This document shows positions 29,196 to 48,871 of a stretch of 54,704 nucleotides of DNA, piece by piece. The notes below the pieces were generated by a model. That model did not search any database. It was given only the letters and a program-made list of their open reading frames with translations, and was not told where the DNA came from. The stretch comes from Candidatus Tyrphobacter aquilonaris (GTDB lineage Bacteria > Vulcanimicrobiota > Vulcanimicrobiia > Vulcanimicrobiales > Vulcanimicrobiaceae): contig PKZD01000034.1 in assembly GCA_003133745.1 (NCBI GenBank), positions 1,886 to 56,589 of the forward strand. Reading direction: 5' to 3'. Position numbers and translations under genes: made by a program. Every line of letters begins with the position of its first letter. The first letter of the stretch is position 1.

Positions 29196-29885
29196 ATGAG
29201 AGCGCTTCACGTCGCGATCGACGGGCCCGCCGCAAGCGGGAAGACGACGGTCGCGCGAGGTCTCGCGGCTCGTCTGCACCTGCTCTATCTGGACACCGGC
29301 GCGATGTATCGCGCCCTCACGTTTCTCGCGCTGCAGACGCGCACGGAGGCCGACAACGCTGCCGCCCTTCGGCATCTGTGCGAGGCCGGGCTCATCCGCG
29401 TCGAGCTCGACGCCGCCGCGCCGCTCGGTTTTCGTGTCTTCGCGGGTGACGCCGAGCTCGGTGAGGCGGCGCTGCAGTCGAACGAAGTCACCGCGATCGT
29501 TTCGACGGTTGCGGCGCATCCGGCCGTGCGGGAGGCGATGGTTGCCGCCCAGCGTGCGATCGCCGCGCGGGGAAGCGTCGTGATGGCGGGGCGTGACATC
29601 GGAACCGTCGTGCTGCCCGACGCGCCGGTGAAGATCTTCCTCACCGCCTCCGTCGATGCGCGCGTCGAGCGCCGCCGCGCGCAGCTTGCGCGTGCCGGCG
29701 TGGACTCGTCGACGCATCTGCTGAAAGAGGAGATCGAGGAACGCGATCGCCTCGACGCGGGACGTGCGGTTGCACCGCTCCTTGCCGCACCCGACGCGCG
29801 CACGATCGACTCGAGCGAGATGTCGGCCGATCAAGTCGTGGAGACGATCGCCGCAATCGTCGAAGGCGTCCGCGCAGAGGCGTAA
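29196..29885 (+). CDS. cmk: cytidylate kinase
   Basis: Cmk phosphorylates CMP and dCMP with ATP. The 229-residue product has a P-loop AIDGPAASGKTT near residue 8, followed by YLDTGAMYRALT. MAGRDIGTVVLPDAPVKIFLTAS and RRRAQL motifs come later, as in bacterial Cmk. The start is ATG 29196, the first gene of a plus-strand operon. The stop TAA overlaps the plsC start. The order cmk, plsC, ispH is a known association in bacteria. Confidence 0.95.
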   Translation: MRALHVAIDGPAASGKTTVARGLAARLHLLYLDTGAMYRALTFLALQTRTEADNAAALRHLCEAGLIRVELDAAAPLGFRVFAGDAELGEAALQSNEVTAIVSTVAAHPAVREAMVAAQRAIAARGSVVMAGRDIGTVVLPDAPVKIFLTASVDARVERRRAQLARAGVDSSTHLLKEEIEERDRLDAGRAVAPLLAAPDARTIDSSEMSADQVVETIAAIVEGVRAEA

Positions 29886-30478
29886 TGCCTTACGCAATTG
29901 CGAAGTTTCTCATCCATGCGGTCGCGCGCGTTCTTTGGCGCGTGCGCGTCTACGGAGCGGAAAACGTTCCGCTCGAAGGGCCCTTGATCGTCGCCTGCAA
30001 CCACATCTCGCTCCTCGATCCACCGATCCTCGGAGCGTTTTGTCCGCGCATGCTCCACTACATGGCCAAACAAGAGCTTTTCGAAATCTTTGGGTTCGGC
30101 GCGCTCATTCGTTCCTTTGGAGCCTATCCGGTTGATCGCAAGCGCAATGCCGCGGGCGCGATCAAGCGGTCGGTCGAGGTGCTGCGCTCCGGGGGCGCCA
30201 TCGGCATCTTCCCGGAGGGTGGCCGGAACCTGACCGGGGACGTCGAGGCGCGGCAAGGGGCCGCGCTCCTAGCCTCGCTGGCGAAGGCGCCGGTCGTGCC
30301 CGCCGCGATCGTGGGGAGCGCGCGGGCCACCCGGCTAGGTGCGATGAAAGTCGCATTCGGCCCGCCGATGAGCCTGGATCCCGCCCGGAAAGCAACTCGC
30401 GACGATTTAGCGAAGTTCACCGATGCGATCATGAGGGAAATACGGACGCTGGCGGAGAGCATCGATGGAAATCCGTAA
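29885..30478 (+). CDS. plsC: 1-acyl-sn-glycerol-3-phosphate acyltransferase
   Basis: PlsC acylates lysophosphatidic acid to phosphatidic acid at the membrane. The 197-residue protein has the NHxxxxD catalytic motif as NHISLLD, the FPEGGR substrate-binding motif, and a PVVPAAIVGS segment. A hydrophobic N-terminus (IAKFLIHAVARVLW) likely anchors it. The ATG at 29885 overlaps the cmk stop by one base. The ispH start lies 14 bases before its own end. Confidence 0.92.
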   Translation: MPYAIAKFLIHAVARVLWRVRVYGAENVPLEGPLIVACNHISLLDPPILGAFCPRMLHYMAKQELFEIFGFGALIRSFGAYPVDRKRNAAGAIKRSVEVLRSGGAIGIFPEGGRNLTGDVEARQGAALLASLAKAPVVPAAIVGSARATRLGAMKVAFGPPMSLDPARKATRDDLAKFTDAIMREIRTLAESIDGNP

Positions 30479-31310
30479 GGCGAAGGTCCAAGGCTTCTGC
30501 TTCGGCGTTGCAATCACGCTGAAAAAAGCGGAGGAGGCAATCGCGGCGCGCGACGACGTGACGACGCTCGGCCACGTCGTGCACAACCCGCAGATGGTCG
30601 AATCGCTCGCGCAGCGCGGTTTGAAGGACGCCGCCTCCGTCGACGAGGTGCAGGCCGGCGCGCTCTTCGTGCGCGCCCACGGCCTCCCGGTCGAAGTGCT
30701 GCAGAAGGCGGAGGAGAAGGGCCTCGAGATCCTCGATGCGACCTGTCCGATGGTGACGAAGATTCACGTGCAAGCCGAGCGCCTCAAAGGCGACGGCTAC
30801 AAGATCGTCGTGATCGGCGATCCTAAGCACCCGGAGGTCAAAGGAACGCTGAGCCACGTGCCGGGCGCGTGGTGCATCGAGACCGTCGAAGACGTCGCGT
30901 CGCTGCCGAAATCGAGCAAGGTCGGCGTCGTCGTGCAATCGACGTACTCGCGCGAGCGTTTTAGCGCGATCGTTCGCGCGCTCTCCGAGAAGTATTATGA
31001 AGTTCGCGCCGTCAACACGATCTGCACCGACACGAACAACCGGCAGAGCGAGGCGTTGCGCCTTGCAGACGAGGTCGAGGTGATGGTGGTCGTCGGCGGC
31101 AAGACTTCGGCGAATACGAAGCATCTGGCGGAGCTTTCAGAAGTGCACGGCGCGCGCGCGCACCACATCGAGGGTCCCGACGAAGTGCGCCCGGAGTGGT
31201 TCGAGGGCGTACGCGTCGCGGGGCTGATGTCGGGCGCTTCGACGCCCGGATGGCTCGTCGACCAGGTCGAGGCGCGCATGTTCGAACTCGCGCCCAAGTC
31301 CGCGGCGTAG
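30465..31310 (+). CDS. ispH: 4-hydroxy-3-methylbut-2-enyl diphosphate reductase
   Basis: IspH (LytB) makes IPP and DMAPP in the last step of the MEP isoprenoid pathway, using a 4Fe-4S cluster. The 281-residue protein keeps the three cluster cysteines at C12 (GFCFGV), C94 (DATCPMV) and C187 (NTICTDTNNRQ). GHVVHNPQMVE and SGASTPGWLVDQV are also conserved. The start at 30465 overlaps plsC by 14 bases. The start codon is ATG with the upstream sequence lying inside plsC. Confidence 0.95.
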   Translation: MEIRKAKVQGFCFGVAITLKKAEEAIAARDDVTTLGHVVHNPQMVESLAQRGLKDAASVDEVQAGALFVRAHGLPVEVLQKAEEKGLEILDATCPMVTKIHVQAERLKGDGYKIVVIGDPKHPEVKGTLSHVPGAWCIETVEDVASLPKSSKVGVVVQSTYSRERFSAIVRALSEKYYEVRAVNTICTDTNNRQSEALRLADEVEVMVVVGGKTSANTKHLAELSEVHGARAHHIEGPDEVRPEWFEGVRVAGLMSGASTPGWLVDQVEARMFELAPKSAA

Positions 31311-31326
31311 TTCTCCCGCTAACCGC

Positions 31327-34300
31327 GTGAAGGCCACGGCGAACCCCGGAACGCCGGCTCGCGAGGCAGCGCTTTCGTGGGCGTTCCCCGCGCTGCTCGT
31401 CGTCGGCCTCTTGATCCGCCTCGCGTACCTCCACGCGCAAGGCTTCCGCAACGACATCGCGAGCTTCGAAGCGTGGGCGCTCACGCTCGTCGCGCACGGT
31501 CCGAGCCACTTCTACGGGGCGACGAGCTTCCTCGACTACCCGCCCGGATATTTCTACATCCTCGGAATCGTCGGCTGGGTCTGGTCGGGATTCTTCAGCG
31601 CGCACGATCCGGGTTACAATATCCTCGGCGCGCTCGTAAAGGTGCCGGGAATCATCTTCGATCTCGGCGTCGGCACGCTGCTCTACGTGCTCGTCCGGCG
31701 TTTTGCTTCGCCATGGTGGGCGTTCGGCGCCGCCGCGCTCTACTTGCTCAATCCGGCGGTGATCTTTGTCTCCGCACTCTGGGGACAGGTCGACTCGGTC
31801 GCGGCGTTCTTCGCGCTCCTCGCAATCTACGCGCTGCTGCGCAGCGACGATTTCGAGCCGCCGCGTGCGACGATCTGGATCGCGGGCGCGTGGGTCGCGC
31901 TCGCCTATTCGCTGCTCGTGAAGCCGCAGGCAGCGGTCTTGATCCCGTTGATGATCGCCTTCGCCTTCACCGATCGACAGCGTCTTGCGTTGCGCGTTCG
32001 CGCGACGGCCTATGGCATCATCGCCGGCATCCTCGTCACGATCCTGCTCGTCGAACCGTTCCATCCGTCGAATCCGATCGCAGCGATTGCGTGGCTGCTC
32101 GAACGGCTGAGCTTCGGCACGAACGTCTACCCGTACAACACGGTGAACGCGTTCAACCTTTGGGCGCTTTCGATCCACGGCGGCGCGAAGTTTTGGCAGC
32201 CCGACAATGCGCGCACGTTCTTCGTCCAGCAAGCGACGTGGGGAATCGTGCTCGTCGTCGTCGCGGTCGCGCTGATCGTCTGGCGTTACGTCCAGGCGAA
32301 GACGCCGCGGGCGCTTCTCGAGGCTAGCGCGCTCGCGCTGCTTGCGTTCTTCACGCTCGCAACGCGCATGCACGAGCGGTACGTTTACGACGGCATGCTC
32401 TTCGTGATCGCGTGCCTACCGCTCGCGCGGCGCTATCTCGGGTGCGCGCTCGCGCTCACGGTCGTATTCTGGTCCAACCTCGTCTATTCGTGGCAGTACA
32501 TTGCGATCATGACCTCTGCTCCGCAGGGGGGCGTCGACGCATCGAACCTCTGGGGTCCGTGGACGACACCGCTCGTGCTCACGAACGTCGTCGTGTTCTT
32601 CTACCTCGGCTACGTGTACTTGGGATCGAGCGACGAAACGGCGGGCGCTTCGGCCGCAGCGGCTCCCGCGGAAGAGGCGCGCGCGCGAAGCTGGTACGAT
32701 CCCCGCGAGGGCTTGGCGACATTGCGCAAGCCGCTCGACTACGTCGTGATGGGCGCTCTCGGCCTTGGGAGCTTTCTGCTGTCGTTAGCGATTCCCACAT
32801 GGTATTGGTATCCGAAGGACAAGATCTTCGACGAAGTCTACTTCGCGCGCGCCGCTGAAGAGTACTTGCGGAACATGCGGATCTACGAGAACACACATCC
32901 GCCGCTCACGAAGCTCCTCATCACGGTCTCGACGTTGCTGTTCGGCGGCCTTCACGGCGGCGATAACTCGCACGGCTGGCGATTCCTCGACGTGGTATTC
33001 GGCGCGCTCGTCGTGATGCTGCTCTTCGCCTTTGCGAAGCGCGTGACGGGTTCGACAGTTTGGGCCGCGCTGGCAGCGGCGTTCCTCGCGTTCGACGGCA
33101 TGCATTACGTGCAATCGCGGATCGCGACGCCCGAAGGCTTCGTCGTCTTCTTTGCGCTCGCCGCCGCCTACGCGTTCTACCGTTTCTGGATCGCCTCGCA
33201 ATCCGAGGAGCGTCCGCACGTTGTCGTGCCCCCGGCGATGCACGTCGCGGGTGCCCTCGCTGCGATCGCGGCGGGCGTTCTCGCGATGCTGCTTGTTGAC
33301 GTCGCGCAGCACGCGATCTTCAAATGGCCGTGGTTTACGCCCTGGATGACCTCGGGCTCCACGTCGGGACCCGGCGCGCTGATCATCGGGTTGTTCTATT
33401 TCGCCTGTGGTTTTTATCTGATCGTCCGGAACGTCGCCTTCCCGAGCCTGTTCGGCGACGGTACGCGCGAGCTCACGTTTGCCGATGGTTCCTATGGGCT
33501 CGAAGGAGCGGACGGCACCGAGATGCACACCGTCGACGGGGGCGTGGTCGCAAAGGGCAAACCGCGTCGCGGCGAGCTCACGCAGAGCAGAGGCGGCGGG
33601 CTCGCTCTATCCCAGGACGAGTTGGAGATTACCTATCGCGCCGACAGCGTGGAGTACGCAACGCCCGTCGGCACCGCGAGCTACGCGAATGCGCGGACGA
33701 CGAGCGGCGCGGCGGTCGAAGTCGGGCGGAGCGCAAAACTCTGGCTGCTGCTCTTCACTTTAGCGCTCGGCGTGCTCGTGAGCTCGAAGTGGTACGGCGT
33801 CATGGGCTTCGGGGTGAGCTTCGTCATTCTGATCGGAATCTTCTTGCAGCGCTACTTCTTTGCAAAGCGTCCGGCTCTCTGGGGAAATCCCAACGGTTTC
33901 TGGCTCGACGGTGCGCTCGTGACGATCGTCTTCGTCGCGATGACCGTCTACGGCTTGGTCTGGGTTCCGGACCTCGTGCGTCAGGCCCCCGATCCCAACG
34001 AAGTGCACAACATCAACGACGTCGTGATGCGGCAATACAGCATGTACGATTACCACGCTCACCTGACGGCCACGCATCCCTACGCATCGAAGTGGTTCGA
34101 ATGGCCGTTCGATTACGTTCCGGTCGCGTACTACTACGAAGATCATCGGGATCAGGACCGCACGCAGAGCAATCCCGACAAGCAGTGCTGCATCTACGAA
34201 GTCACCTCGATGCCGAACCCGCTCAACATGTGGTTCGGCCTCTTCTGCGTGCCCTTCATCGGTTTTCTCGCCTGGCGCGAGCGCAACAAGGGCTATGCGC

Positions 34301-34632
34301 TGCTCATCGTCACGTATCTGCTGCAATGGTTGCCGTGGATGAGATCACCTCGTCTCGCGTGGGAGTATCATTTCTACGTAAACATTCCGTTGATCTGTCT
34401 CTGCAACGCCATCGTCTTGCAACGGATCTGGCAGTGGTCGCGCGCCGCCGGCTTGAGCCCCGACGAGAGCAGGAACCGTCGCCTGATCGGCACGACGGCA
34501 GTCTGCGGCATCTCGGGGATCATCGTGGCGTCGTTCGTATTCTTCTTCCCGGTGCTCTCGGCGTGGCCGCTCACCTACGATGCGTGGCACGCCCGGATGT
34601 GGCTGCCGACCTGGATTATCGGGCCGGGCTGA
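31327..34632 (+). CDS. tandem GT-C glycosyltransferase, C-terminal half protein-O-mannosyltransferase-like
   Basis: This 1101-residue polytopic membrane protein appears to join two GT-C enzymes. Residues 1 to about 440 look like a polyprenyl-phosphate-dependent mannosyltransferase-type half, with an acidic first loop (FRNDIASFEAW, residues 40-50) and DYPPGYFYI near residue 70. Residues about 470-1101 match the PMT/GT39 family. The first-loop DE is in KIFDEVYFARAA (about residue 502), HPPLTKL is near residue 525, and FDGMHYVQSRIATPEGF follows. A soluble beta-rich insert of about 100 residues (about 705-800) lies between membrane segments. The start is GTG 31327, 16 bases after ispH. Its end overlaps the convergent gene by 17 bases. 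Likely role: mannosyl transfer on the outer face of the inner membrane. Confidence 0.8.
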   Translation: MKATANPGTPAREAALSWAFPALLVVGLLIRLAYLHAQGFRNDIASFEAWALTLVAHGPSHFYGATSFLDYPPGYFYILGIVGWVWSGFFSAHDPGYNILGALVKVPGIIFDLGVGTLLYVLVRRFASPWWAFGAAALYLLNPAVIFVSALWGQVDSVAAFFALLAIYALLRSDDFEPPRATIWIAGAWVALAYSLLVKPQAAVLIPLMIAFAFTDRQRLALRVRATAYGIIAGILVTILLVEPFHPSNPIAAIAWLLERLSFGTNVYPYNTVNAFNLWALSIHGGAKFWQPDNARTFFVQQATWGIVLVVVAVALIVWRYVQAKTPRALLEASALALLAFFTLATRMHERYVYDGMLFVIACLPLARRYLGCALALTVVFWSNLVYSWQYIAIMTSAPQGGVDASNLWGPWTTPLVLTNVVVFFYLGYVYLGSSDETAGASAAAAPAEEARARSWYDPREGLATLRKPLDYVVMGALGLGSFLLSLAIPTWYWYPKDKIFDEVYFARAAEEYLRNMRIYENTHPPLTKLLITVSTLLFGGLHGGDNSHGWRFLDVVFGALVVMLLFAFAKRVTGSTVWAALAAAFLAFDGMHYVQSRIATPEGFVVFFALAAAYAFYRFWIASQSEERPHVVVPPAMHVAGALAAIAAGVLAMLLVDVAQHAIFKWPWFTPWMTSGSTSGPGALIIGLFYFACGFYLIVRNVAFPSLFGDGTRELTFADGSYGLEGADGTEMHTVDGGVVAKGKPRRGELTQSRGGGLALSQDELEITYRADSVEYATPVGTASYANARTTSGAAVEVGRSAKLWLLLFTLALGVLVSSKWYGVMGFGVSFVILIGIFLQRYFFAKRPALWGNPNGFWLDGALVTIVFVAMTVYGLVWVPDLVRQAPDPNEVHNINDVVMRQYSMYDYHAHLTATHPYASKWFEWPFDYVPVAYYYEDHRDQDRTQSNPDKQCCIYEVTSMPNPLNMWFGLFCVPFIGFLAWRERNKGYALLIVTYLLQWLPWMRSPRLAWEYHFYVNIPLICLCNAIVLQRIWQWSRAAGLSPDESRNRRLIGTTAVCGISGIIVASFVFFFPVLSAWPLTYDAWHARMWLPTWIIGPG

Positions 34633-45259: not shown

Positions 45260-46598
45260 AGAAGTAGGGGCGCAACGCTGAAAAACGCGAGTCGTACGCG
45301 ATGCGCGCGCGTAAAGACGCCGTGGGCATCCGGCGCAGCACGGCGAGCGCCATGCTCCGGCTGCCGTTGGCATCGAGCGCGACGGCGAGGTTCTCGGGGT
45401 TGACGTCGTTTGGGCGGTTCAGTGCGACGGCGAGCGCGCGGCGCGCTTGCACGTCATGATGCGTGCGCGCGTAGACGTACGAGAGAAGCGCAGAGCCCTC
45501 GGCGCGTTGCTCGCTCGTCGCGGTCATGCGTCGGAACGCGGCGATCGCGCGGTCGTCGTTCCCTCGCGCTTCGTAGGCAAGGCCAAGTGATTCGAAGACG
45601 TCGTTGCGGTCGTGCGAGAGATCGAGCGCCTCACGCGCGTAGGCGATCGCTTCTTGGAAGTGCCCGGTCTGGAGCGCGGCACTGCTCGTCCACGCGAGCG
45701 CGCTGACGCAGAGCGGGTCGATCGTAATCGAATAGCGGAGTTCTCGGTAGCTCGCCCGCGCAAGGCCGGCCTCGAGCAAGGCGCTGCCGTACCACTGATG
45801 CGCGGACGCCGAATGAGAATCGAGCGCAATGGCGCGTCGCAGATCGCGCAGCCCCTGCGCGAACGCAGTCCCATCGGGCATGGAGAGGGTCGTCGTGATC
45901 AGGCCCGTCACCGCGTAGGCGTCGCTATTGCCGGGATCGAGTGCGAGCGCTTGTCGCGCATATGCGCGGGCGCGCGCGTAGTATGTCGCAGGCGCCGCGA
46001 CGCCGTATCCGTAATCCGCCATGGTCGCGTCGGCCGCCGCCATCGCCGCGTAGTTCCGAGCGTCGGTGGGATCGGCGTCGATCGCGAGCGAGAAGTAGCG
46101 CAGGCTCGTCTCGATGCCCACTCTCGTTCGCATATCCCAGTAGTAGTGACCGACGGCGTAGAGTTGCTGCGACGTCATCACCGCGGGCGCGCGCGCGGAA
46201 GAAAACGGCATCATGACGACCGCGGCGAGCGCGAACGCGAGCGCCGCGGTGAGGACGGGTCGCCGGCTGCGATGCGGTTGCGCGACCGGTTGCGTGAAGC
46301 GATAGCCTCGGCGGGGCACGGTTTCAATGGCGCCGGCATTCCACGCGCGCAGCGTCTTTCGGAGCACGTGCACGTTCTGCGAAAGGTTGCCCTCGGTCAC
46401 GTATCCCTCGGGCCAGACCCGATCGAGCAGCTCGCCCTTCGTGCACAGCTCACCACGACGCTCGATGAGGGCGAGGAGCGTCTCGACGACCTTCGGCCCG
46501 AGCGCAAGAGCCTCACCGCTTCGGAGCAGCACGAGGCGCCGTTCGTCCAAGACGAAGGGCCCGAATGTGTAGAGGTTTTCAGATGTTTCTGAGGACAT
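45231..46598 (-). CDS. membrane-bound winged-helix regulator with TPR repeats
   Basis: The 455-residue protein has three parts. An OmpR/PhoB-type winged helix lies at residues about 10-105 (FVLDERRLVLLRSGEALALG, then EGNLSQNVHVLRKTLR, then VPRRGYRF). A single membrane helix follows at about residues 115-135. The outer part has several tetratricopeptide-like repeats (YARQALALDPGNSDAYAVTG, AYAREALDLSHDRNDVFESLG). This resembles CadC/ToxR-type one-component regulators. It ends inside the argD 3' end and starts two bases from a divergent envelope-protein gene, its likely target. Confidence 0.88.
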   Translation of the reverse strand: MSSETSENLYTFGPFVLDERRLVLLRSGEALALGPKVVETLLALIERRGELCTKGELLDRVWPEGYVTEGNLSQNVHVLRKTLRAWNAGAIETVPRRGYRFTQPVAQPHRSRRPVLTAALAFALAAVVMMPFSSARAPAVMTSQQLYAVGHYYWDMRTRVGIETSLRYFSLAIDADPTDARNYAAMAAADATMADYGYGVAAPATYYARARAYARQALALDPGNSDAYAVTGLITTTLSMPDGTAFAQGLRDLRRAIALDSHSASAHQWYGSALLEAGLARASYRELRYSITIDPLCVSALAWTSSAALQTGHFQEAIAYAREALDLSHDRNDVFESLGLAYEARGNDDRAIAAFRRMTATSEQRAEGSALLSYVYARTHHDVQARRALAVALNRPNDVNPENLAVALDANGSRSMALAVLRRMPTASLRARIAYDSRFSALRPYFFSRAVRSST

Positions 46599-46600
46599 TG

Positions 46601-48871
46601 ATGCGACGCTCCATGAGAGTATTTACCGGAATGAGGCGAATGGCCCTCGCGCTCGCCATGCTGACGGCGCTCGTTCCCGGCGGGCGAGTGCGCGCCGCCG
46701 TGCCCCAAACCTTCAACTTCTCCGTCGTGCGGGCGCCTCATCCGCTCGCCCTCGATCCGACGTTGCACGATCCGGCCTGGCAGACGGGGCTCGTGCCCGG
46801 GGGCACCTGGGAAAACCTGACCACGCGATCCCCGGCATTGCAAGGAACGCAGGCATTTCTGCTCTACGACGACCGGTATCTCTACGTCGCTTTTCGCGCG
46901 CAGCAGGCCGGCGTCCCGATTATCGGGACGCAGAGCACGAACGATGCCGGCTTCGGGAGCGACGACTTCGTCGGCATCGGCGTCGATCCGAGCGGCGCCG
47001 GAACGCAGGCGTATTACTTTGAGACGACGCCGCTCGGGACGCGGTATGAATCGGCGAACGAAAACGTGCGCTACCGCCCGACGTGGCAGGCGGCGGCCGT
47101 TCGAACCGCCGACGGGTGGAGCGCCGTGATGATCATCCCGCTCGACATTCTGCGCATCCCGCGCTCGGGATCGCAGAGCTGGCGCTTCCAGTTCGTGCGA
47201 GCCGTCGCGGCGAAGGGCGAGCACTACGTTTGGGCGTTCGACGGCCTTATGGCCGACGCGCCGGCCGGCACGTGGCCGACCTTCGCCGACACGCGTTGGT
47301 GGGCCGCAGGCGGCGGCATCCGCATCGCATCGACCGCGGCGGCGCGTCCGCATCCGGTGGCAAACGTCTACGCGCTCGAGAGCGTCGGGCGCGACCGCGA
47401 TCTCTTCGAACAAGCGAATGGGACGTTCTTGCCCGAATCGGTCCGCCACTTCGGCATCGACGTGAGCGTGCCGCTAACGCCGACGATCAACTTCGTCGGA
47501 ACGCTCGATCCGGATTTTTCGAACGTCGAGATCGATCAGCAAACGATCGCGCCGCAAGAGTTTCGCCGGCAACTCACGGAGTATCGCCCGTTTTTCTCAC
47601 AAGGCGCCGTCTTCTTGAACGCGACGACGGCCGGTCGTACGGCGGCCGGCGCCTTTTCCACGAACTCAAACTACGTCTTCTACTCCCCCGACATCGGACC
47701 GTTCGATCGAGGCGCGAAGGTCGAGGGCACGTTTGGGGATCAAAGCTTCGGCCTCCTGAGCTTTCGGGGTTACGACGAAACGACGGGGAACACGTTCGAT
47801 GATGAAGCCTTCGGCTACGAACACGCGTTGCCGGACCGCTCGTTTCTCTATTGGACCGACGGTGCGCTCGCGCACCACAGCGTCGCGGGGGACGACTCGA
47901 CGATCGAAGGCGGCGTCGAGGCACGCAACCTGCACTCCGGCCTCATCGGCTACGTCGACTATGCGTTCGAGAACGGGAGCTGGGTACCGCAAGGGCACGC
48001 GAACCAGTTGGAATCCTTCGTCGACGTGCACAAGCCGAACTACGAGCTCAACGCGGCCTACCTCGATATTTCGCCCAATTACAATCCCATCGACGGATAC
48101 ACCGCGAACTCCGATATTCGCGGGCCGATGGGGATCATGGATTTCACCGGCGGCTCGTCGCCGGGGATCAAGAATTGGTTTGCATTCATCGAAGGCGATC
48201 GCTTTGAGGACGAGAGCGGCGCCGTGCATCAGGCGGACAGCGGCCTCTTCGTCGACGCGACCTTCACGAATAGGTTCTCGCTCGACGGCGCGGGCCCGTC
48301 GACCGGCGAGTTGCGCTCCTACGCGATCCCGTCTGGGCCCGCGTGCACGGGGCCAAGCATCGGAGTATCATACTTCACGGGCTATCCGTGCTATCGCGAC
48401 GGCGTGACGCAGCCCTTCGATCTCATGAGCGTGCCGGTCGGATACGGCGACGGAACGCCGTCGCCCGTCGATGCCGATTACGCTTGGGGCACGTTCGGAA
48501 GCAACGGCGTGCACTTGTTCTCGCTGACGACGGCGCGCGTGATCGCCCGGAGGATCACGCTCGGGCTCGAGTACGACGGAACCTACGAGCGGGCGCTTTC
48601 GACGGGCGTTCTCGACTCGCAGTGGCTGCGCCGCGTCTCGCTGGGAGTCAACCTCACGAGCGGGAGCACGTTCACGCTCTCGTTACGCTCGATCAACGGA
48701 TACGGCGGATTTGCACCGGCGGTCGGCACCGATTTCGCTGCGGCATTTCAAGAGCGCTTTCGCAACGGCGACGAGCTCTATGTGAACTTCGGGACGCCGG
48801 CGGCGGCGGCGACGTTGGATCGCTTGATCGTGAAGTTCATCTTCCACTCGGGCGGCGACACCGGAACGTAA
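46601..48871 (+). CDS. DUF5916-type outer-membrane protein with CBM9-like domain
   Basis: The 756-residue protein has a signal peptide (MRRMALALAMLTAL, ending near RVRAA). A carbohydrate-binding-family-9-like domain follows (LDPTLHDPAWQTG, then FLLYDDRYLYVAFRAQ). A long strand-rich C-terminal region contains LDPDFSNVEIDQQTIAPQEFRRQLTEYRPFF, typical of DUF5916, and suggests a barrel. The ligand is unknown. I choose ATG 46601 because GAGGAC stands five bases before it. Later in-frame ATGs at 46613 and 46631 are possible. It is divergent from the regulator at 46598. Promoters must lie inside the opposing genes. Confidence 0.72.
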   Translation: MRRSMRVFTGMRRMALALAMLTALVPGGRVRAAVPQTFNFSVVRAPHPLALDPTLHDPAWQTGLVPGGTWENLTTRSPALQGTQAFLLYDDRYLYVAFRAQQAGVPIIGTQSTNDAGFGSDDFVGIGVDPSGAGTQAYYFETTPLGTRYESANENVRYRPTWQAAAVRTADGWSAVMIIPLDILRIPRSGSQSWRFQFVRAVAAKGEHYVWAFDGLMADAPAGTWPTFADTRWWAAGGGIRIASTAAARPHPVANVYALESVGRDRDLFEQANGTFLPESVRHFGIDVSVPLTPTINFVGTLDPDFSNVEIDQQTIAPQEFRRQLTEYRPFFSQGAVFLNATTAGRTAAGAFSTNSNYVFYSPDIGPFDRGAKVEGTFGDQSFGLLSFRGYDETTGNTFDDEAFGYEHALPDRSFLYWTDGALAHHSVAGDDSTIEGGVEARNLHSGLIGYVDYAFENGSWVPQGHANQLESFVDVHKPNYELNAAYLDISPNYNPIDGYTANSDIRGPMGIMDFTGGSSPGIKNWFAFIEGDRFEDESGAVHQADSGLFVDATFTNRFSLDGAGPSTGELRSYAIPSGPACTGPSIGVSYFTGYPCYRDGVTQPFDLMSVPVGYGDGTPSPVDADYAWGTFGSNGVHLFSLTTARVIARRITLGLEYDGTYERALSTGVLDSQWLRRVSLGVNLTSGSTFTLSLRSINGYGGFAPAVGTDFAAAFQERFRNGDELYVNFGTPAAAATLDRLIVKFIFHSGGDTGT

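Follow-up and report, generated by a model that had tools for sequence, protein, structure and literature searches.

A fused GT-C/PMT membrane protein of Eremiobacterota as a candidate enzyme for starting and extending protein O-glycans

The open reading frame at positions 31327–34632 of the window (the whole stretch of 54,704 nucleotides analysed here) raises the question of whether one polypeptide can hold two membrane-embedded glycosyltransferases and, if so, what such a pair would do together. The frame begins with GTG, 16 bases past the stop codon of ispH, and encodes 1101 residues, which the first-pass annotation had read as two fused GT-C glycosyltransferases with a soluble insert. In the full-length AF2 model (mean pLDDT 87.5) the protein consists of two complete GT-C folds, both apparently catalytic, and by sequence and model it looks like a pair of sugar-adding enzymes that are separate proteins in mycobacteria and yeast.

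A frame or assembly artefact was ruled out because dozens of genomes carry the protein in one open frame; nor is the fusion a matter of chance, since the single-ORF form is kept at 32–71% identity over three families. Conservation of the N-terminal half is on a par with that of the C-terminal half (mean column identity 49% versus 43%), and the motifs singled out by the first-pass annotation (D43, D70-YPPG-Y75, FDEVYF and HPPLTKL) are mostly invariant across 39 homologues.

Two GT-C modules in one open reading frame

The elements of the two halves, all on the + strand, are as follows.

31327..34632 (+), fused GT-C/PMT protein, 1101 aa (ORF, domain profiles, homologues, AF2 model)
31327..32661 (+), N-terminal GT-C half, residues 1–445, 12 TM helices, ALG6/PIG-M/GT87-like (profiles, AF2, Foldseek)
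31453..31455 (+), D43, putative base for catalysis, tip of juxtamembrane helix 1 (invariant, stand-alone homologues included)
31534..31551 (+), DYPPGY (70–75), first periplasmic loop (alignment conservation)
31780..31794 (+), WGQVD (152–156), second periplasmic loop, GT-C signature (alignment conservation)
31921..31926 (+), KP (199–200), K invariant, candidate donor-phosphate ligand (by presumed equivalence to PimE K195)
32368..32382 (+), MHERY (348–352), periplasmic, HERY invariant, candidate donor-phosphate site (by presumed equivalence to PimE H321/H322)
32626..32733 (+), linker between the halves, residues 434–469, predicted cytoplasmic and partly disordered (436–450) (AF2, charge rule)
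32734..34629 (+), PMT (GT39) half, residues 470–1101 (Pfam, PDB sequence and fold matches)
32827..32844 (+), FDEVYF (501–506), catalytic DE motif of PMT (alignment)
32896..32913 (+), HPPLTK (524–529), PMT EL1 motif; HPPLTKL is 524–530 (alignment)
33118..33135 (+), R598 to E603, EL2 acid (alignment)
34351..34362 (+), RLAW (1009–1012), EL5 Rx2(F/W/Y) motif of PMTs (alignment)

The C-terminal half matched both PMT domains of Pfam above their curated cut-offs (PF02366, PMT, 61.8 bits; PF16192, PMT_4TMC, 67.5 bits), and both are present in all 39 aligned members. Its PDB matches, by sequence and by fold, are Pmt4 and Pmt1-Pmt2, with which it shares the fold and the EL1 motifs; Pmt4 is the best of these (Foldseek E 2.7e-9). 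The PMT motifs (DE and HPPxxK in EL1, an Arg in EL2, Rx2(F/Y/W) in EL5) are all in place, with D502, E503, H524 to P526, K529, R598 and R1009 invariant. With the bacterial PMT (GT39) of Mycobacterium tuberculosis (Rv1002c, MtPMT) it has in common PF02366 and PF16192, the DE motif, HPPxxK, the EL5 Rx2(F/Y/W) motif, the lack of a MIR domain and probably the donor, polyprenyl-P-mannose. It departs from MtPMT in the second GT-C module fused to it, in an extra hairpin and a beta insert, predicted to be cytoplasmic, between TM4 and TM5, and in its score on the bacterial Pmt equivalog model NF058602 (62 bits, far under the 800-bit cut-off). On domains and fold we have filed this half as a variant PMT and not as a Pmt ortholog.

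A further difference concerns the acidic residue of EL2. Mutagenesis of MtPMT has shown that D74, D176, R441 and Y444 matter, and the D176E substitution almost abolishes activity (PMC12331936); the counterparts in the fused protein are D502/E503, E603, R1009 and W/F1012. Glu603 thus stands in place of Asp176, and does so in every member of the class, fused or stand-alone, whereas the residue is Asp in PMTs from other classes of the phylum, in yeast Pmt4 and in MtPMT. The acidic role of the position may nevertheless be kept, and the class may have compensated for the replacement or may use a different donor sugar.

For the N-terminal half, the claim of an acidic first loop of its own and a YPPG motif was borne out, with D43 and D70-YPPG-Y75 both present and conserved. 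Modelled alone by AF2 (pLDDT 89.1, pTM 0.91), this half has the fold and the Asp in the first periplasmic loop by which the GT-C superfamily is recognised. Foldseek placed ALG6 first (E 4.7e-6, TM 0.61–0.65) and ALG3 next, and a fold search with the full-length model also matched GPI mannosyltransferase I, PimE and GPI transamidase. The best fold matches (ALG6 of GT57, ALG3 and GPI mannosyltransferase I, TM about 0.6) are eukaryotic ER enzymes of lipid-linked glycan and GPI synthesis whose sequence similarity to the N-half is marginal: a PDB search with a profile of this half reached GPI mannosyltransferase 1 at 4e-6, and the ALG6/ALG8 family PF03155 (GT57) was matched by 12 of the 39 members (best 6e-5), the window sequence giving no match. 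The N-half passes the cut-off of Pfam PMT_2 in the genome scan and scores around that of GT87 (PF09594; 18.9 bits by hmmscan and 26.4 bits in the genome scan, cut-off 25); it is no clear GT87 member, ALG6 and ALG3 being nearer by modelled fold.

Within the 39 fused proteins D43, YPP, WGQxD, K199, N277, D293 and MHERY are invariant or almost so, and this signature is largely kept in 12 relatives within the phylum that consist of the single domain or carry it in another fusion. Because it persists in relatives outside the fusion, we regard the N-half as a second, complete GT-C enzyme module with its own conserved putative active site; the idea that it is a mere extension of a long PMT fold was ruled out by its own fold, its own signature and the existence of stand-alone relatives. 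Comparison with PimE (GT87), which extends mannose on mycobacterial mannoproteins and on PIMs, suggests roles for these residues. The two share the GT-C fold, an Asp, putatively catalytic in the N-half, placed at the tip of juxtamembrane helix 1 and, presumably, a polyprenyl-P-mannose donor, although PimE is a separate protein with an HH motif where the N-half has HER. In PimE, D58 is the base and K195 and H322 lie near the donor phosphate (PMC12041525). Judged by position, D43 should match D58, and K199 and H349-E350-R351 should lie near the donor phosphate like K195 and H322.

Predicted topology and the beta insert

In the AF2 model 12 TM helices were counted in the N-half, and the C-half has the 11-TM core of PMTs with two extra helices. 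With the N terminus inside, K+R amount to 17.3 per 100 residues in short inside loops versus 6.8 in short outside loops. Since the helix number of the N-half is even, its active site and that of the PMT half are both predicted to face the periplasm. Three further elements belong to the C-half.

33232..33453 (+), extra two-helix hairpin, residues 636–709 (AF2, alignment)
33454..33723 (+), beta-meander insert, residues 710–799, G-box-like, TM4-TM5 loop (AF2, charge rule, alignment, profile)
33961..34218 (+), EL4, residues 879–964, TM7-TM8 periplasmic loop, the MIR site of eukaryotic PMTs, here without MIR

The beta-rich insert had been placed at about residues 705–800, and this was confirmed at 710–799 as a single-sheet beta-meander of ten strands, predicted to be folded with a pLDDT of about 90–95. 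Its supposed position at the site of the MIR domains was not upheld. In the alignment with Pmt4, query residues 493–622 correspond to Pmt4 71–212, followed by two weak pieces, 805–838 (Pmt4 225–259) and 899–941 (Pmt4 545–588); the insert therefore takes the place of a 12-residue loop (Pmt4 212 to 225), while the equivalent of MIR would fall between query 838 and 899. This placement in the TM4-TM5 loop is model-free and agrees with the topology reading. Pmt4 and Pmt1-Pmt2 carry their MIR domains in the lumenal TM7-TM8 loop (about 879–964 here), a loop without MIR in the fused protein, for which searches with Pfam and PDB profiles gave no MIR match. The prediction puts the insert on the cytoplasmic side between PMT TM4 and TM5, away from the exported acceptor, whereas the active site and acceptor groove of PMTs are periplasmic (PMC12331936), so that the suggestion that it recognises the protein acceptor had to be set aside. 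In the literature searched we found no PMT described with a soluble domain that faces the cytoplasm.

A profile of the insert matched the G-box of CPAP in the PDB (4bxq, E 7e-9). The resemblance to the CPAP/SAS-4 G-box (TCP), in the single-layer beta-meander and the YPDG repeats, extends over about 35 positions and need not mean common descent; the insert is far smaller, bacterial and set within a membrane enzyme. Pfam Tcp10_C was matched by seven of the 39 members, the window sequence scoring 11.8 against a cut-off of 36 bits. Among the 41 relatives searched the insert is confined to this protein, at one per copy. The hairpin is a separate and dispensable element, because three deep members of family f3 retain the insert without it.

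Distribution, neighbourhood and history of the fusion

We searched 149 genomes of the phylum (Eremiobacterota), 117 of them from the three families of the class. The fusion was found in 112 of these 117, including every genome at least 90% complete; the five without a match are assemblies 56–81% complete. At about 40 extracted loci clear of contig ends both halves lie in one unbroken frame. All but one of the relatives in public genomes carry the label Candidatus Eremiobacterota, and a plasmid search returned only matches to the C-half, in actinobacteria. More than one fused paralogue is present in G089, G109, G038, G037 and genomes of genus g37, some of them cut by contig ends. The window itself also holds a 768-aa ORF (46565–48871, +) that has no Pfam match at 1e-5.

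Upstream of the fusion the window contains three conserved neighbours.

29196..29885 (+), cytidylate-kinase-like gene (cmk) (name read from the sequence)
29885..30478 (+), plsC-like acyltransferase gene (identity confirmed)
30465..31310 (+), ispH (identity confirmed)

A radA-like gene followed by cmk-like, plsC, ispH and fusion genes is constant across all three families (the radA-like and cmk names come from reading the sequence alone), which argues for vertical inheritance of the fusion. In most genomes a gene for a trans-type polyprenyl diphosphate synthase lies between ispH and the fusion (L040:4958-5956 and its equivalents); the window (31310 to 31327) and its genus have none there, and this linkage to isoprenoid genes was accordingly set aside as weak functional evidence.

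The PMT tree groups the class's fused and stand-alone proteins on a single branch, separate from PMTs of other classes (SH-aLRT 99), with the stand-alone PMTs nested within the fused proteins. The nesting rules out the stand-alone forms as ancestors of the fusion, which is therefore old in the class and has released a lone PMT at least four times. The insert was lost in three of the four separations of the PMT from the N-half, the hairpin being mostly retained; these losses make the insert seem tied to the fusion and suggest a role for it in the two-enzyme arrangement and not in PMT catalysis, although four events (p 0.25) are too few for significance. Probably the sheet supports this arrangement, either as a clamp on the halves or on the linker or as a docking site for a cytoplasmic partner such as the donor synthase.

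Other arrangements also occur in the phylum. A 619-aa stand-alone PMT that retains the beta insert (L130:1610-3466, -) is the exception among the four separations and adjoins a fused copy; ten further stand-alone PMTs of the class have lost the insert. A 950-aa protein (L129:2017-4866, +) joins a relative of the N-half (63–478) to another second half, GT-C-like by eye. A 1146-aa GT-C and PMT fusion from another class (L166:4473-7910, +) has a very divergent N-half and no insert; GT-C and PMT fusions may thus have arisen twice or may predate the class, and the architecture may be wider than the class.

Possible functions of the fused protein

In actinobacteria a PMT starts the chain with one mannose, which is then lengthened by PimE or by other enzymes of GT87, and both steps draw on polyprenyl-P-mannose on the periplasmic side (PMC12757957). 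As the same two kinds of enzyme are joined here, with both sites predicted to be periplasmic and a Dpm1-type synthase present in the genome (PDB 5mlz match, E 4.5e-52), the most economical reading is of a bifunctional membrane-bound protein O-glycosylation enzyme whose PMT half starts the glycan and whose N-half extends it, a reading for which we hold belief and doubt to be about evenly balanced. The PMT half would place one mannose from polyprenyl-P-mannose on Ser or Thr residues of exported proteins; one or more further mannoses would then be added in the periplasm by the N-half from the same donor pool, while the cytoplasmic G-box-like sheet would clamp or dock as proposed above. The first-pass annotation had suggested that a single chain builds and then transfers a short glycan; the one-protein route remains plausible, but 'start and extend' is the better order, because PMTs move one sugar directly and no pre-built glycan. 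More tentatively, the protein could be a single-chain O-glycan synthase whose sheet ties its two halves together or binds the polyprenyl-P-mannose synthase; synthesis of the donor would then be physically joined to initiation and extension. Co-occurrence with the donor synthase was ruled out as specific support, the Dpm1 homologue being phylum-wide (133 of 149 genomes, fusion-free ones included). Starting and extending is also limited by the stand-alone paralogues of both the PMT and the N-half, with which coupling of the activities would be dispensable, and by Glu603, which sits where MtPMT needs Asp176.

The main alternative, which we consider appreciably less probable, is that both enzymes are active with a shared donor and a shared site but with different acceptors, proteins for the PMT half and a lipid or wall glycan for the N-half. 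The nearest folds and profiles of the N-half do act on lipid-linked glycans or glycolipids, PimE itself works on PIM lipids (PMC12041525), stand-alone relatives of the N-half exist, and the nearby plsC and ispH genes are a hint of lipid metabolism; against this, no lipid-glycan pathway genes were recognised beside the locus within the window, and a class-wide fusion is simplest if the reactions are consecutive. A transfer of glucose or some other hexose from polyprenyl-P, compatible with starting and extending, seems rather unlikely. It would account for the class-wide Glu603 and the low equivalog score and would suit ALG6, the nearest fold to the N-half, which is a glucosyltransferase, but a Dpm1-type synthase is present and the PMT domains score above cut-off.

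An N-half without catalytic activity, serving for instance as a built-in partner that replaces the Pmt dimer interface, is improbable. GPI transamidase, in which PIG-U is an inactive GT-C fold, was among the fold matches, and eukaryotic PMTs act as dimers (PDB 6p25, 9i5k); however, D43, D156, K199, N277, H349, E350 and R351 persist in every or almost every fused protein and in the stand-alone relatives, and an inert half should have lost some of them. That the insert is a MIR-like module recognising the exported acceptor we judge very improbable indeed: it is predicted to be folded and is beta-rich, but its loop, its side of the membrane and the lack of a MIR match all speak against this, as does its loss from PMT paralogues that retain every PMT active-site residue.

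PMT and PimE-type enzymes are known separately; of a GT-C and PMT fusion we found no description in the open-access literature searched. By the Rosetta-stone argument, a lineage-wide fusion of this kind would couple initiation and extension of protein O-mannose genetically; it would offer a compact, testable bacterial system, and O-glycosylation would be expected to be general in this phylum, of which almost nothing has been cultured.
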